Source: a virus. Taken from it: DNA of 29,605 bases. Position 1 is the stretch's first letter, and each line of letters starts with the position of its first letter. Positions 5,861-18,361 of this stretch are shown here, one piece after another. The stretch covers positions 1 to 29,605 of the IMG/VR virus record IMGVR_UViG_3300010430_000349; one strand, 5' to 3'. Both the position numbers and the translations under genes were made by a program. The notes below the pieces were generated by a model. It ran no database searches. It saw nothing but the letters and a program-made list of their open reading frames with translations, and was not told the DNA's origin.

Positions 5861-6997
5861 TTAGGTGGTCGGATTCTTGGCTGCGGTGTCAATCGCCATG
5901 ATGCCATAATCCTTGCCATTAAACGTGGTTTTCTTGATCCCGAAAATGGAATGAGTCGAGATAACCAGCTGATTGCCATTGTCGCGGGTTTCCTCAAACC
6001 ACCCGAAACGCAGGCCAGTGCCAGGGGATCCAAACGCACAAACGGCCGCTTGCTCGCCCAGGAATAGAGCTCTGCAGGCCTCAATGTTACCGCCGGATCC
6101 ATAATCGGTAAACCGGATCGGGTTTTCATGCTCATGGAGCACCACATTGTTATACATACCCAGGGCACCCTTAAAAATCGGGTTGTTCCTGCCCTCGGCT
6201 GCCGCGGCCGCTTTCTGAATATCTAACCATTGGCCGGTGCTGGTGGCGGTCCGAACATCGTAAACCTGCCAGGAATTCATCACCGTAACAAAGTGATTTT
6301 CGCCGTTAATCATAATCGGCATGATCTTAGGCGTTTGGGTATTGCCGTCGGTGCCGGCATCACCGCCGCCGGATCCGCCGCCCATCATGGTGGCAACCGC
6401 TTTGGCCTTATCGATCTCGGTAAGGTTCATAACGTCACCAACTACGATGGTCGCCTTTGTTTTGTTGTTCGCGTACTGGATATGCTCCGCGTCCGGTGCG
6501 GTAAAGGCGTTGCCCGCAAATCCGGAATAGGTTGCCGGAAAAACAAACTCGGCATTTACGCCGCGAGCTCCGGAAAGGTACATGAAATGCAGCTCATCAA
6601 ATACCCTGGCCCACCATTCGGATTGACGCTTACGCGCCACCTTGCGTAAATTGTGGATGGTCCGTTTCCGCGTCATGCGGCCGCCGCTGTTCACACCGCC
6701 GCGCATTTGATCGATATAAACGCCGTCGGTGTAAAACTTCAATTCTTCCTCTTTGTTCTCGAGTACATCGTCACCCTCGACCGGTTGCATTTTCAGCTGC
6801 ATGGAAAGGTCAAAGGAAATGTACTCGCCGGCATCGTTTTCCAGCTCGTTAAGCTGGTGGATCGGCATACCGGATTCAACTCCCTGGCCAAAAAACTTGC
6901 GACTCCAATATGAAGTACGCGCAACATCGACGGCCAGAAACGCCGAATATTTCTTTACTGCTTTTGGGTCATTAACCCCTATGATGGTTTGTGCCAT
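5861..6997 (-). CDS. Major capsid protein, N4 gp56 family
   Basis: A 378-residue protein with the hallmarks of the N4 gp56/DUF4043 (PF13252) HK97-fold capsid family: N-terminal KYSAFLAVDVARTSYWSRKF, then the E-loop-like stretch with GVYIDQMRGGVNSGGRMTRKR (about 92-112), and the C-terminal GRNNPIFKGALGMYNNVVLHEHE (about 269-291) and SPGTGLRFGWFEE (about 324-336). The start follows AACAGGAGG. It forms the icosahedral shell, assembling on the scaffold encoded upstream. Collinear pieces of its C-terminal part recur in the gene at 15801-16139. A clear family match. Confidence 0.9.
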   Translation of the reverse strand: MAQTIIGVNDPKAVKKYSAFLAVDVARTSYWSRKFFGQGVESGMPIHQLNELENDAGEYISFDLSMQLKMQPVEGDDVLENKEEELKFYTDGVYIDQMRGGVNSGGRMTRKRTIHNLRKVARKRQSEWWARVFDELHFMYLSGARGVNAEFVFPATYSGFAGNAFTAPDAEHIQYANNKTKATIVVGDVMNLTEIDKAKAVATMMGGGSGGGDAGTDGNTQTPKIMPIMINGENHFVTVMNSWQVYDVRTATSTGQWLDIQKAAAAAEGRNNPIFKGALGMYNNVVLHEHENPIRFTDYGSGGNIEACRALFLGEQAAVCAFGSPGTGLRFGWFEETRDNGNQLVISTHSIFGIKKTTFNGKDYGIMAIDTAAKNPTT

Positions 6998-7145: not shown

Positions 7146-7313
7146 TTACTTTCTTGGCAAATCCTTTTTGGATATGCTCACTGTTTTAGGTGCGTCAATG
7201 CAGATCCTAACCTTTTTGCCGCTCTTTTTGATAACGCGCAGCGTGATTATCGTATCGTCCTGCAGATGCAAGTGCACAATCTCGCTTTTCGATACGTCGG
7301 TTAAGAGTGCCAC
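7146..7313 (-). CDS. CsrA/RsmA-like RNA-binding translational regulator (55 aa)
   Basis: A GTG-start ORF (SD-like GGGGCGG 4 nt upstream) that begins 19 nt after the acyltransferase stop. It aligns end to end with CsrA: LLTDVSKSEIV against LTRRVGETLMI, then strand-forming DTIITLRVI, then KKVRICIDAPKTVSISKKDL against E. coli [20 protein letters not shown]. CsrA dimers bind GGA motifs in mRNA leaders and control translation. Of the RNA-contact residues, Leu4 is kept, Arg44 is replaced by Lys and Arg6 is not kept. The usual helical C-tail is absent. The short length explains why gene callers would miss it. GTG use and the N-terminal end are less certain than the core match. Confidence 0.75.
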   Translation of the reverse strand: MALLTDVSKSEIVHLHLQDDTIITLRVIKKSGKKVRICIDAPKTVSISKKDLPRK

Positions 7314-10886: not shown

Positions 10887-13193
10887 TTATCCTTTCTTGG
10901 CTGGTTTCTTAGCCGGTTGCCTGGGTGTTGGTCGTTCGGATGCCATAGCCGATCGCTTAGAGGCCTCAATATCCGATAAGACTTTCGCCCTATCGATCTG
11001 CCGGCCGACGGCCGCATCGGTCTTTTTAAAATCTAATTCCTCGTCGGCCAGTTCGACCGAGCTCTCGATCGACATTGTTTCCGCCTCGATCTTCTCAACC
11101 TCGGCGCCTACCTTGTCGGCCTCGACTTCCATCTTTAATGATTTTTCCTCGGCCTCGACTTCCAGCTTGCCGGATTGGGCCTCCTTAAATCGAATCTCGA
11201 GCATCTGGATTGCCTCGAGTAGTTCCTTTTGCTTGGCCTCGGCCTCTGCTTTCTGGCGCTCTTTTTCAACTTCTTCCGGATCCTCCGGATCTTTGCTCGG
11301 ATCCTTTTGACCGGTTATATCGCGGATCCGCTGCACCAATGTTTCCTTTAGCGGTACATCGGACATATCGACAATAATATCGAGCATGGCCATAGCCAAT
11401 TCGGGCGGTAGTTTCTCGAGCATGGCGGTTAATTGCTCAAAGGCTGCCTGCCTCATCGAGGCCGTAAAGTTCTGGCTATCGATAACAAAATCGGCCTGGC
11501 TGGCCGTTATATCGTTTAGCGTTTCGCCGGTATCCGGATCCTGGTAATTGAGATCGACAAAATCCCACTCATTCGGGGCCCCCTGGATCCGGATTGTTTT
11601 TTCTTCGGTGTAAAATTGTTCGATCAAGGATAGTTTTAGCTCGCCTATTAACTGAAATGCCAGGCGGAGATTGTCAAACATGGTCATGGTTAAGGTGGTA
11701 CCGAGCTCCTGGCGGGCCGTTATCGCCTTGCCGCTTACGGCGTTTGTCTGCCTGCCCATCATTTCATCATTAACGCCGCCGGTCCGCTCGATATATTCGG
11801 CGTCCTGGTTCATTAGCATAATGTGTTCGCCGGCCAGCTGCGTATCGGTCTGGAAATCGAATCGGGTACCGGACTTAACTCGGATAAGACCGTCGGGCCG
11901 GTCCACTTCCTGCTTAATATCATCCCAATCATCGGTGGCATTTTCATCGGCTACAACCTGGCGAGTATTGAGAATATGCAGGGCTTTTGATCGGCGCTTG
12001 TTTAGATCTTCCTGGGGATCGCGCAGCTGCCGGATCATGCCATAAGGTGAGTTATCAACCTTTTTGCGGTTTGCCCAAATGGGCACAAATGGAAACCGGT
12101 TGTGGTTGTAAGGCGTCGGGCCGTCGTGCAAGATGCCTCGACTACAAAATATCATTACCCTAACGGCCATCCGGATAGCATCCACTGTGCTGGCCAGGCC
12201 CTCTTGCACCATCGTTTGATGGTTTTCGTTCTTCTCATCAAACATTACGCCGTTCATGGTGCCAATGTCCTTGCCTTTCATTATCTTGCCGCGCATCGGT
12301 TCTTTATACCAGGCTTCAATAAGGCGGACGCGATTGCGGGCCCAGGTGGTTACGCCGGTATCTCCGGATAGCTCGAGCGCGAATCCGGCCTCGCCCTCGA
12401 CCGGATCAACATCGATCTGTTGATCTTCTTCCTGCCAGTATAGATCATCCTTTTGCACTGCCAGGCGGACAATGCCTATCCGGTCCGGAAACATCGAGGC
12501 CGCTACATCGAAATCCACCCACTTGGATCTGAATAAATAGCGGCCGTCTGAATAATCGGGCTCAACGTGCAGGGTATCCCACCAAATATTGCGCCAATCT
12601 TCCCACCTTACGAATACCGGATCATCGTCAATATCTGATTTAACGCCGGCCTCTAACCATCCCAGGCCGGATTTGACCGAATCCTCAAAGGCCCTCGAGC
12701 GGTGGAATTGTTCTTTATTAACGTCGGATACATATTTAAGGATCTTTGTTTTCGTTTCCGCCAGGGGCCGGTCCTCTTTACCTCGAGGTAGTACAAGATA
12801 ATCAATGCGCGTTCGTTTCTCGGTGCCGATCACCCAATCACAAGTAGGCTTGATCTGATTAAAAACTGTTGCCTTTTGCCCGCGTTCTTTTAGCTCGCTC
12901 TTATCATCTTCCTCCCATTGATCGCCGTCATAAAATTTATGGTCTTTCATCTGCTCGATACGGAAATCGCCTTGCAGCTGCCGCTCGCGCTTATACCATC
13001 CATTTAGCCGGCGGTACCTGGTTAAGGATACCTGGTCATAATCATAGGGGTGCTTTTCAGTGTCGCGGGTTTCCGCATCTTCAAAACCGGCGAGTGCCAG
13101 TTCTTCCTCCTGGGATAGGCCCTGGTTGTAACCATAATCCGGATCGTTAAATCGATCCGGTTCAACCGCTGTTGTATTGGATATATCCGGCAT
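10887..13193 (-). CDS. Portal protein, P22-type
   Basis: A 768-residue protein of the length and layout of P22-like portals. The early block (MKDHKFYDGDQWEEDDKSELKERG and FNQIKPTCDWVIGTEKRTRID, about 85-150) is the family signature. A wing/stem section follows, then a long charged coiled-coil barrel-like C-terminus (about 640-750). As dodecamer it would form the DNA channel at one head vertex and dock TerL and the adaptor. Its start lies 32 bp inside the preceding gene and follows GCGAGGATACCA. Confidence 0.88.
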   Translation of the reverse strand: MPDISNTTAVEPDRFNDPDYGYNQGLSQEEELALAGFEDAETRDTEKHPYDYDQVSLTRYRRLNGWYKRERQLQGDFRIEQMKDHKFYDGDQWEEDDKSELKERGQKATVFNQIKPTCDWVIGTEKRTRIDYLVLPRGKEDRPLAETKTKILKYVSDVNKEQFHRSRAFEDSVKSGLGWLEAGVKSDIDDDPVFVRWEDWRNIWWDTLHVEPDYSDGRYLFRSKWVDFDVAASMFPDRIGIVRLAVQKDDLYWQEEDQQIDVDPVEGEAGFALELSGDTGVTTWARNRVRLIEAWYKEPMRGKIMKGKDIGTMNGVMFDEKNENHQTMVQEGLASTVDAIRMAVRVMIFCSRGILHDGPTPYNHNRFPFVPIWANRKKVDNSPYGMIRQLRDPQEDLNKRRSKALHILNTRQVVADENATDDWDDIKQEVDRPDGLIRVKSGTRFDFQTDTQLAGEHIMLMNQDAEYIERTGGVNDEMMGRQTNAVSGKAITARQELGTTLTMTMFDNLRLAFQLIGELKLSLIEQFYTEEKTIRIQGAPNEWDFVDLNYQDPDTGETLNDITASQADFVIDSQNFTASMRQAAFEQLTAMLEKLPPELAMAMLDIIVDMSDVPLKETLVQRIRDITGQKDPSKDPEDPEEVEKERQKAEAEAKQKELLEAIQMLEIRFKEAQSGKLEVEAEEKSLKMEVEADKVGAEVEKIEAETMSIESSVELADEELDFKKTDAAVGRQIDRAKVLSDIEASKRSAMASERPTPRQPAKKPAKKG

Positions 13194-14281: not shown

Positions 14282-15766
14282 CTATACGCTCATGGCGGTG
14301 CGCCGCCGACGTTTCCACTTTTCGGCGCCGCGTTTCTTGGGTTTGTTGCCTGTTAGGCGGACCATGACATATTGAAAGGCATCATGGATATGGCTAAACC
14401 GGTTCTTTTCTGGATCGTCAAAGTATTCGCCGGTGTTCATTATCTCTTTGTAATGGTATCCGCCTAAGAATCCGTTTAATAACCTGGTGCACCTGGGATC
14501 GATCAAGCATCCATCGATACGCGCCAGGATCCCATCGACGGCCTGCGTTCTGGCCGTAAAGTTTTGCTCCGAGCTCTCGATCTTGACGCCTTCCTCTGTC
14601 ATTAATATGGCATTACTGGTAAATCCTCCCTCTTTTTTGCTAAACTTGGCCGCGCCGGCCGGATCCCCATAATCTACCCACTCGGCGTTAGGAAATTCGG
14701 TGTTACATTTTTCCTTTACCCACTTAGTAAAATCGATGATCCCCATCTTATCGTGGCAAAATTCCCGCATTACATGAAACCGCAAAGGCGAGGGGTTATG
14801 GACTACGACCGCGGCCGGCACGTTGCCCGAGTTATCCCATCCTCGATACAGGGTGCCAGGTCCGGACCATATCAAAGGGGCGCCGGCCTGGTGCATATCG
14901 CGCCGGAAATTATAATAAACCAGCTTACCTTTGACCAGGACGCCTGGCTTTCCATCGACATACATTTCGATCCAATCTGGCGTATCCTTATAATCCAAAA
15001 TTAGATCGTTATAATAGCCAGGCCTGAGATACTTCTCGTTTTCCCTGGGTGGCTGCCAAAATCCCTCATGGTTGGCCAGTGGTTCAATTTCCGGTATGGG
15101 CCCTGGCACTTCGTTCTGCCAGGCAAATTGATGATAGGTGGGCATTTCTATATCGGGCGGGTTCGTTGTTTCTATGCCGAATCGAGGTAGCGGGAATGTT
15201 TCCTCACCATCGATGATCCATTCGGGCGGGATCTCTTTATATTTTTCCTTGTACCACTGCAGGGCCTTTTTCATCTTAGGAAATCGGCCGATCCGATTTT
15301 TAAGCATCCTCTTGATAGCGTCGGCCACTTCGATAGACTCATCGATCCAATAGCCGGTTATCTCGAGGCTTTTAAACTTCTTAACGTCCGCCTCTCGATC
15401 GCATGATCTAAATAAAAGGGTTACGGTGGGGCCGTCCGGATGCTTAATGGTATATTTTTGCTCTTGCTTTAGGAATTTACCGAAAGGAAACCACTCAAAG
15501 ATGGTGGCCTGCGTGGTATCTCGGAGCTCTGCATAGGTATTGCGGACAACAACAAATTTACATTCTTTGATATTGTATTTTGTGAAAAGGTGCCAGGGTA
15601 TAAGGTGGCACACTTCCCAGGTGGCGCCGGTGGTTTTGCCGGATCCGACCGGACCGACCACTGCGCGTAAGGCTGCGCCGGACTTGTGGAATTGCCTTAA
15701 TGTAGGTATCGCGTCATAAGTGACGCTTTCCTCGCCGGCAACCGGTTGTGGTATCGCGCTTGACAA
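14282..15766 (-). CDS. Terminase large subunit (ATPase/nuclease)
   Basis: A 494-residue packaging motor. Walker A is GPVGSGKT (38-45); Walker B is at ITGYWIDES (136-144). The C-terminal RNase H-like nuclease shows Asp311 in RGWDNSG, Asp365/368 in WVDYGDP, and Asp462 in SHIHDAF. It drives ATP-dependent DNA entry through the portal and cuts genome ends. The start is a TTG preceded by GGAG with 7-nt spacing; an upstream ATG at 15780 is in another frame and stops early, and the TerL frame has a TAG 21 nt before the TTG. The rare TTG start may limit expression. Confidence 0.93.
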   Translation of the reverse strand: MSSAIPQPVAGEESVTYDAIPTLRQFHKSGAALRAVVGPVGSGKTTGATWEVCHLIPWHLFTKYNIKECKFVVVRNTYAELRDTTQATIFEWFPFGKFLKQEQKYTIKHPDGPTVTLLFRSCDREADVKKFKSLEITGYWIDESIEVADAIKRMLKNRIGRFPKMKKALQWYKEKYKEIPPEWIIDGEETFPLPRFGIETTNPPDIEMPTYHQFAWQNEVPGPIPEIEPLANHEGFWQPPRENEKYLRPGYYNDLILDYKDTPDWIEMYVDGKPGVLVKGKLVYYNFRRDMHQAGAPLIWSGPGTLYRGWDNSGNVPAAVVVHNPSPLRFHVMREFCHDKMGIIDFTKWVKEKCNTEFPNAEWVDYGDPAGAAKFSKKEGGFTSNAILMTEEGVKIESSEQNFTARTQAVDGILARIDGCLIDPRCTRLLNGFLGGYHYKEIMNTGEYFDDPEKNRFSHIHDAFQYVMVRLTGNKPKKRGAEKWKRRRRTAMSV

Positions 15767-15800
15767 TTCAATCTCCGCATAGGCCTATCCTCTCCTTTTG

Positions 15801-16139
15801 CTACCACCCTCCTGGGCGGTTTAGTTTGGTAAATGGGATCCACTGCTCATGGATCGTGACAAAATCCTTACCGTCGATATTGACCGATACCTTTTTGACG
15901 GTGGATCCAACATGGTACAATTCACGCATAGGCCCCAGGCCATCCCCAGGGCTATGAATAATAGAAACGCCCTCATACCTACCGAGGGCGCCCGTAAAAA
16001 TCGGATTAGTGCGGCCGGCTGCCGGCGCGATTCTCGCTGCAGCTGGTACGGCCTCGAGGCCCAGGGCCAGGCCCAGGGTGCCCAGGGTGGCCAGCTGCAG
16101 AAACTTGCGTCTATTTATTTTCGAGCGATTATTAGGCAT
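15801..16139 (-). CDS. Tat-signal protein with major-capsid-protein-derived domain
   Basis: A 112-residue protein. Residues 8-35 are a textbook twin-arginine leader: NRRKFLQL, a mild hydrophobic stretch rich in Gly/Ala/Leu, and VPAAARI as cleavage region. The remainder repeats collinear pieces of this phage's own capsid protein: GRTNPIFTGALGRY (42-55) against GRNNPIFKGALGMY (269-282), SPGDGL (63-68) against SPGTGL (324-329), and KK...GKDF (82-93) against KK...GKDY (355-364). At DNA level 32 of 41 bases match between 15976-16016 and 6153-6193. The start has only a weak SD (AAAGAA). Export via Tat is predicted; function unknown. Confidence 0.75.
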   Translation of the reverse strand: MPNNRSKINRRKFLQLATLGTLGLALGLEAVPAAARIAPAAGRTNPIFTGALGRYEGVSIIHSPGDGLGPMRELYHVGSTVKKVSVNIDGKDFVTIHEQWIPFTKLNRPGGW

Positions 16140-16244
16140 TTTCTTTAAAATGGGCTATTTGTGTGAAATCACGCAAAAAATGGCCTCGCCAGGTGCGCGA
16201 CATTGGACGATCTCAAGGGCCCGAGTATGGTAGGGTGCAGTAAA

Positions 16245-16877
16245 TTAGGCACTTAACCGCTTAGACATTCCCGCATCGTCCGGTTTCTCTAAGTCGCCAA
16301 CAATGTAATAAGTGATTTTGTCGGCGCCGGATCCGTCCTCATCGATATTAAATGCCTGCCGCTGCAGGGGAACAATTCTGGCCACCACTTCCGATACTGT
16401 TCTCAGGGTAGTGTTTTGATCCTTTAGGGCCAGGGTGGCTGCCACCACAATATTTTTCCGGATACGTTTTCCGGACGCGAGCTCGTCCATTATTATATCG
16501 CCTCTAATTAATCGGTCCAGGGTTACATCACACCGTCGCAAAATTTTATGGAATAAAACCTTGTGAGCGCCGATCACTCCTGCGCCGAGCTCGCCATATT
16601 TGTCGATCGCCTCGGAGTAGTTATCAGCTGTAACCTCTTGCTGTAACTCCTGTTCAATCGATTTCTTTTTTACCGCTGCGCGTACATCGTCGGCCATGTT
16701 TCGGGCCCATCCGAGTTTATCCGCCTTTTTCATTATAGCCTGGCGGGTGGGTCCGTAACTACGGGAAATTGCAGCAATAGATAGCTGGCCTAATATGTAC
16801 TCCTGTTTGATCTCGGTCCACACTTCGGCCGGATAACCGTTGCCATTACCGTTGCCGTTTTTCGTACCTTTCGACAT
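16245..16877 (-). CDS. Terminase small subunit
   Basis: A 210-residue protein with a Gly/Asn-rich start followed by a helix-turn-helix (about 20-62: VWTEIKQEYILGQLSIAAISRSYGPTRQAIMKKADKLGW), as in small terminases that recognise packaging sites. The centre is helical (oligomerisation) and the C-terminus is acidic. It lies in the usual place before TerL, separated only by the Tat-signal gene. Its start overlaps the previous gene. Confidence 0.75.
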   Translation of the reverse strand: MSKGTKNGNGNGNGYPAEVWTEIKQEYILGQLSIAAISRSYGPTRQAIMKKADKLGWARNMADDVRAAVKKKSIEQELQQEVTADNYSEAIDKYGELGAGVIGAHKVLFHKILRRCDVTLDRLIRGDIIMDELASGKRIRKNIVVAATLALKDQNTTLRTVSEVVARIVPLQRQAFNIDEDGSGADKITYYIVGDLEKPDDAGMSKRLSA

Positions 16878-17522: not shown

Positions 17523-17903
17523 CTATTCATCCATGTATTTAGCGATTATTGCCACCATTTGCCCGCGCAATTTAAGCCAGGCGCTATTATATGCGGTGGG
17601 ATCCTTTGCCGGATCCAGTAGCGCAATTTTCCAGGCGTCCAGGGTGGTTTCAATCCCATCCATAACCGGCGCCAGATCTTTGTGCATCCCCGCTTTTTGC
17701 TCCGGAGTTAATACAGGGGCATAGGCCGTTAGGGCCTCAACCTGGTCGTTATAAAATTTGCGGGCCGTGACATATTTGCCCTTTGCCGTTTCCGGTATCG
17801 GGTTGCCCTGGAATTGAGCGCAGCCGGCGAACATGAGCGCCAGGAAAATAGCCAGGCCGATTACCAGGCCGTCAAAAATTTCGTTTCGGATCTGCTTTAC
17901 CAT
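17523..17903 (-). CDS. Lipoprotein of the lysis cassette (spanin-like candidate)
   Basis: A 126-residue protein starting after AGGAGGCCTTTAGTT. The N-terminus has a hydrophobic stretch (GLVIGLAIFLALMFAGC) ending in a lipobox-like Cys28, so the mature protein should be lipid-anchored. The remainder is helical (YVTARKFYNDQVEALTAYAP). Directly after the holin gene, a lipoprotein is commonly an outer-membrane spanin or Rz1-like partner, though it is longer than typical Rz1. Function inferred. Confidence 0.6.
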   Translation of the reverse strand: MVKQIRNEIFDGLVIGLAIFLALMFAGCAQFQGNPIPETAKGKYVTARKFYNDQVEALTAYAPVLTPEQKAGMHKDLAPVMDGIETTLDAWKIALLDPAKDPTAYNSAWLKLRGQMVAIIAKYMDE

Positions 17904-17923
17904 AACTAAAGGCCTCCTTTCCT

Positions 17924-18361
17924 TTATTGGGCTATCGGCGTCCGCGGTTCCATACTGCCGGCATCCACCTTTAGCCTCTTGGTTGTTAAAACGGCCACCT
18001 CGACCTGGCCGGAAATAAAATCGTCCAGCTGGCCGATCCCTATCTCGAGAATCTTCTGCGTGGCCGGCGGTAACTGCTGCTTGATTGAAGTCATGGCCGC
18101 GCCTTTCAGCTTTTGGGCCTCGTCCGGAGTTATCACCCCATCGGCGCCGACTTCCTTAACAGTTTCATTTATCTTGGCCACCGTGTTTTGAACCACTACG
18201 CCCAGGACGTTTAAGGCCTCGTTTAGGGCCTCGCTCTTGGTCCGGCTTTTCACCCATTTTTTGAGCTCGTACAGGGCCCAGGTTGTTAAGGCCGAAACGG
18301 CCGCCACTGCAAAGGGAATTATGATCTGCAGCAAACTTTGCATTAAGGTCTGTTCTTCCAT
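17924..18361 (-). CDS. Holin, LL-H-like
   Basis: A 145-residue protein (AGGAGGCAACAG-ATG) with one N-terminal TM helix (about 8-30, LLQIIIPFAVAAVSALTTWALYELKKW) and a long, soluble helical tail. This topology, with a Lys-rich turn after the TM and a helical segment (ALNEALNVLGVVVQNTVAKINETV), fits the LL-H holin superfamily. It would permeabilise the inner membrane and let the soluble endolysin out. Assigned from topology and operon position. Confidence 0.6.
   Translation of the reverse strand: MEEQTLMQSLLQIIIPFAVAAVSALTTWALYELKKWVKSRTKSEALNEALNVLGVVVQNTVAKINETVKEVGADGVITPDEAQKLKGAAMTSIKQQLPPATQKILEIGIGQLDDFISGQVEVAVLTTKRLKVDAGSMEPRTPIAQ

Follow-up and report, generated by a model that had tools for sequence, protein, structure and literature searches.

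A small gene between the terminase genes of a phage clade joins a predicted twin-arginine leader to motifs of phage head proteins

In a 29,605-nucleotide stretch of viral DNA (the window), we identified a chimeric ORF of 112 residues that is very probably a clade-specific accessory gene, selected and fast changing, inserted between terS and terL and composed of a twin-arginine (Tat) leader, a motif of the major capsid protein (MCP) that is not of the GP4 type, and a middle portion in which motifs of head proteins are exchanged. Its function is probably interference with rival phages or the decoying of sensors of capsid and portal; the more specific proposal that its product is a bait directed against co-infecting phages is put forward tentatively. 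The ORF joins parts of head-building and head-gating proteins to an export leader, with one part varying as a cassette, and, should it act on rivals or on head-protein sensors, phages would be reusing fragments of their head proteins as competitive or counterdefense factors. With portal type, MCP motif A type, and neither represented, the six naturally occurring variants allow direct experiment. The features of the region are as follows.

15801 to 16139, minus strand: chimeric ORF, 112 aa plus stop (homologs and alignment)
16245 to 16877, minus strand: terminase small subunit (TerS), upstream neighbor (phrog_1206, E=3e-21)
14282 to 15766, minus strand: terminase large subunit (TerL), downstream neighbor (phrog_2, E=2e-21)
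16035 to 16139, minus strand: residues 1-35, twin-arginine leader NRRKFLQLATLGTLGLALGLEAVPAAA, with an AAA cleavage-type end and then a basic residue (TIGR01409)
15954 to 16034, minus strand: residues 36-62, MCP motif B GRTNPIFTGALGRYEGVSII (BLASTP, MCP and motif profiles)
15846 to 15953, minus strand: residues 63-98, exchangeable middle (profile and pairwise comparisons)
15804 to 15845, minus strand: residues 99-112, tail WIPFTKLNRPGGW, in which IP is invariant in six homologs (family alignment)
15773 to 15802, minus strand: near-invariant AGCAAAAGGAGAGGATA-N-ATGCGGAG, ribosome-binding-like (alignment of relatives)

The ORF lies exactly where the original prediction had placed it, with TerS upstream and TerL downstream, each encoded by its own minus-strand gene. 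The slot between the two terminase genes also holds homologs in five sister phages, together with one truncated copy, and the family comprises six full-length sequences. All have a leader with RR-F, motif B, and a tail that includes IP, and the homologs are 37-76% identical to the window copy. The reading frame is uninterrupted in each of the six lineages, and synonymous change exceeds nonsynonymous change in most of the homolog pairs tested (Fisher p 7e-6 to 0.02), with no excess in two comparisons (window copy against L002 over codons 1-43 and against L033 over codons 31-62). Judged from this substitution pattern, the ORF is a real coding gene, translated and selected, and the earlier suggestion of a recombination accident that has kept its frame is too weak to account for an ORF retained in six lineages with a synonymous excess in several pairs. 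Across the clade, TerL is 84-96%, the portal 75-94%, and the MCP 90-99% identical, and the chimeric ORF (33-76%) diverges much more than these three proteins (75-99%). Other small genes near the slot are likewise variable, so that fast change is by itself no proof of an arms race. No full-length relative was found in Pfam, NCBIfam, PHROGs, or 50,697 phage records, and no match to hosts or prophages emerged from the genome collection; phages Ss1 and Rollin, which have a related TerL, contain no such ORF, and the gene preceding terL in these phages overlaps it by a few bases.

A Tat signal had been predicted at the N terminus, and the profile search agrees. The window leader scores 21.5 bits against NCBIfam TIGR01409 (cut-off, 16.7), and the RR-x-F/L motif, hydrophobic h-region, and AxA-type cleavage site of a predicted Tat substrate are all present. 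Five of the six leaders pass the cut-off, that of L028 falling short at 16.4 against 16.7 bits, and RR-F, the hydrophobic run, and the Ala-rich end occur in all six homologs. As predicted from sequence, then, the leader is of the Tat type. The same cargo was found behind Tat leaders in none of about 70 other GP4-like loci, and we found no phage Tat-capsid fusion in the literature.

That the leader is joined to a capsid protein fragment was also correctly foreseen. Comparison of the window ORF with the phage's own MCP by BLASTP gave E=9e-7, in one region only, and the ORF scored 30 bits on an MCP profile made from 15 phages and 40 bits on a separate profile for motif B (NPIFTGALGxYxGVxI, a hairpin motif), a score reached by none of 2000 shuffles. 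Five homologs tested scored 27-40 bits on motif B, again with 0/2000 shuffles. All six homologs keep motif B and score on the full-length MCP profile; conservation within the family is highest in motif B, which holds 9 of the 19 invariant columns of the alignment. At the DNA level, the reported 32 of 41 identical bases between 15976-16016 and 6153-6193 proved exact and lies above chance, the maximum among 200 codon-shuffled ORFs being 26. The proposal that three MCP blocks follow one another in the same order survives only in its first part: residues about 36-62 match MCP significantly and no others do, support for its other two blocks is weak, and the order that it states fails, being probably the reverse. 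The chimeric ORFs also remain below the curated whole-protein cut-offs, with 12-18 bits for PF13252 (cut-off, 23 bits) and no match to TIGR04387 (cut-off, 60 bits).

The phage's own head genes provide the reference for the source of these motifs.

5861 to 6997, minus strand: own MCP, N4-gp56 type (TIGR04387, E=6e-52; 8h89)
6128 to 6196, minus strand: own MCP motif B, loop and hairpin 280-289 in the AlphaFold2 model
6245 to 6334, minus strand: own MCP motif A, hairpin 228-240 followed by a helix in the AlphaFold2 model
10887 to 13193, minus strand: own P22-type portal (PF16510, E=2e-160)

The AlphaFold2 model of the MCP is confident (pLDDT 82). Two positions of motif B that are K and N in the MCPs of the clade are T and G in every one of the six ORFs. 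A first set of foreign MCPs had been fetched by the pattern TNPIFTGA and was T biased; this bias is removed in a set collected via portals, in which K occurs in 18 of 22 distinct GP4-like MCP motifs and N likewise in 18 of 22. The MCPs nearest to the ORF motif, as protein and as DNA, are those of other N4-gp56 branches, in a set partly fetched by the ORF's own motif. Since motif B has the T/G of other N4-gp56 phages, it was not copied from the phage's own capsid gene, and the derivation from its own MCP that had been proposed was rejected. We consider it very probable, jointly with the architecture as a whole, that motif B is of a foreign type belonging to a non-GP4 branch of the N4-gp56 phages. 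The structural module itself is GP4-like in both portal and MCP (8h89, 8jov). A TerL profile found no homolog in other GP4-like loci, some of whose contigs stop short of the slot, and the packaging module (window 14282-16877) appears, from these comparisons, to be foreign to GP4-like phages. Between portal and MCP (window 7146-7313) lies a small ORF that reads as a putative regulator of the CsrA type, and the corresponding slot of Pavtok and JC1 is annotated with a CsrA-like gene.

The relatives' ORFs add a portal motif or a second MCP motif, a feature outside the view of the original prediction. What occupies the middle of the L003 and L028 ORFs is KFF-x-GDQW...RG-x-x-A-x-x-VN, the conserved N-terminal motif known from P22-type portals; it corresponds to about 12846-12944 within the phage's own portal gene. 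In whole-library scans, Pfam P22_portal hits these two ORFs over identical profile positions (E=0.003 and 0.0055), and on the portal motif profile they score 21 bits, with shuffles reaching no more than 11.5. This piece covers about 35 residues, the full-length portal domain being absent from both ORFs, and the window's own copy is without the GDQW motif. In L033 and L032, the middle is MCP motif A, KIKPVKIDGTDYYV (8 bits; 0/2000 shuffles), which in L033 follows motif B, the reverse of the order in MCP; L032 ends at a contig edge. The window middle is weakly like motif A. In profile comparisons of its residues 63-112, 217 of 2000 shuffles match the MCP C terminus as well and 620 of 2000 match motif A as well; pairwise, residues 79-99 gave 3/20000 against motif A of one foreign MCP, the best of several tried, and 322/20000 against the C terminus of the phage's own MCP. 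Resemblance of the tail to the MCP C terminus was rejected as not significant against shuffles. MCP has motif A before the first block, so that the order would be reversed in the window ORF if the assignment to motif A is right. An alignment of the window and L003 copies shows identity of mostly 80-95% on both sides and about 40% across the middle ~110 nt, in two phages with terminases 90-96% identical, and the pattern is that of a cassette exchange with the frame kept. The clade's own portals are about as similar to the portal piece as the few foreign ones compared; this part of the ORF therefore does not account for immunity of the phage itself. No close donors, with high DNA identity, were found in INPHARED or IMG/VR for the portal piece or the tails. 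A plain deletion remnant of head genes was considered and is unlikely, as the MCP-then-portal order of the ORF opposes the genome order.

Specificity was assessed with 9,048 small ORFs from all loci of related phages, at a threshold of E=0.01 and with reversed sequences as the control. The MCP profile matched this family, one ORF of L132, and contig-edge pieces of true MCP genes; the portal profile matched only L003 and L028 besides one fragment, at a contig edge, of a true portal gene. Reversed ORFs gave nothing under E=0.9 against either profile. The L132 ORF (L132:3078-3263; 60 aa) lies in a distant GP4-like phage between the portal and the next head-region gene, its start overlapping the portal stop; it begins with MERKPNPIFKGGHGVYNDI, a GP4-type MCP motif B, has no homolog in about 77 related loci, and is possibly a second, independent small protein with motif B.

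The junction with terL shows several features of its own. The near-invariant stretch at 15773-15802 overlaps the end of the chimeric ORF (AGGAGAGG...ATGCGGAG) and sits before the TerL start, and in L028 and L033 the ORF continues through it as SKRRG and a stop. Within AGCAAAAGGAGAGGATA...ATGCGGAGA, the frame of the ATG relative to TerL varies among relatives, and TerL seemingly starts at a TTG just downstream; a programmed frameshift into TerL from ATGCGGAGA was rejected, in our reading, because the frame offset is not constant among relatives. By our reading, L028 and L037 have better ribosome-binding sites than the window, L002, and L003, where these are weak. The gap between TerS and the ORF (window 16140-16244) has conserved islands, GATC, GAG-CC, TTT, and AAATAG, in all relatives. 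A search of the slot for an RNA element or intrinsic terminator gave no z-score signal and no Rfam family, and the sole terminator-like match within the ORF falls in motif B. Just upstream of TerS (window 17523-18361) are a holin (phrog_36209) and a lipobox-bearing 126-aa protein that is possibly spanin-like.

We tentatively favor a Tat-targeted slot that takes up MCP and portal motifs of other phages in frame, as a "motif-swap" gene exchanged between sisters, with the product serving as bait for rivals or for sensors. A role in superinfection exclusion or as a decoy, as originally proposed, is possible. The Tat leader would carry the peptide to the inner membrane, where the hairpin derived from MCP, together with the segment taken from portal or MCP, might compete for the contacts that start the procapsids of rival phages with N4-gp56 capsids and P22-type portals; alternatively, the product might hold rival head subunits at the membrane. 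Because its own MCP has a different version of the motif, the phage would leave its own heads unharmed, and changes of the middle may track changing rivals. Models of either kind, rival assembly or sensors, face their greatest obstacle in the export signal: a product that is truly exported cannot meet capsid subunits in the cytoplasm and would have to be active before its export or while still tethered as a precursor. The Tat pathway, moreover, normally wants folded cargo, in contrast to the AlphaFold2 model of the ORF, which has no fold (pLDDT 44, with only six sequences in the input).

A first alternative, possible if doubtful, is that the leader alone is selected, for a membrane or Tat-pathway activity, and that what follows is debris of head genes from illegitimate recombination in the packaging region. 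The leader is indeed kept in all six copies, while the middle is open to replacement and structure prediction gives no fold, and the seemingly foreign packaging module marks a region with a history of recombination; however, motif B is the most conserved part, the constrained positions are those conserved in MCP, and debris should not persist in this way. We regard it as unlikely that the protein acts as a decoy for, or modulates, a host sensor of capsid and portal proteins, of the CapRel, Lit, or Avs4 kind, by offering it the recognized motifs without the remaining head. CapRel is activated by capsid proteins, Lit by MCP with EF-Tu, and Avs by portal and terminase (PMC11087589). The motifs found in the ORF family are precisely those of MCP and portal, of canonical type, but known sensors are cytoplasmic and the leader points outward. 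Avs-type sensors, furthermore, recognize folded structure and not a 30-residue piece, and no such sensor is tied to a host. Another reading is an assembly factor for the phage's own heads, expressed with the terminase genes and serving as a small scaffold or docking peptide by way of its MCP and portal interface motifs. This would suit the location in the packaging operon and the independent 60-aa ORF of L132; it is nonetheless improbable, as motif B is not of the own-MCP type, phages whose portals are 94-95% and whose TerL is 95-96% identical differ in whether they have the portal piece, and a Tat leader is odd for such a role. Chance resemblance or a spurious ORF, to which the shortness of the motifs and the nonsignificant tail of the window copy might point, is largely refuted by the shuffle, reversed-ORF, and whole-Pfam controls and by the retention of ORF and motif in six lineages with a synonymous excess.

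Set beside known systems, the gene resembles each in part. Residues 36-62 correspond to the most conserved motif of the N4-gp56 MCP family (TIGR04387/PF13252; HK97 fold, GP4 8h89), and the L033 and L032 ORFs also have its motif A, but only about 25-45 residues of that protein are present, out of order, behind a leader, and far under the family cut-offs. The L003 and L028 ORFs share with the P22-type portal (PF16510; GP4 8jov) its N-terminal F-x-x-GDQW...RG-x-A...N, although this piece amounts to about 35 of roughly 770 residues and is missing from the window copy. In leader anatomy and small size, the product is like the small Tat-targeted proteins (TIGR01409; TIGR02811, formate-region Tat target), whereas its cargo consists of phage head motifs and matches to TIGR02811 are far under the cut-off. 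Phages possess membrane-bound superinfection exclusion proteins, small, variable, membrane-targeted accessory proteins that the product resembles in being small, variable, and predicted to be membrane targeted; to our knowledge, none is built from head-protein motifs. Finally, the triggers of abortive infection (T4 gp23/Lit, CapRel, and Avs4; PMC11087589) involve recognition of the same two head proteins, but there the trigger is an intact phage protein, whereas here fragments are carried in a separate gene with a predicted Tat leader.
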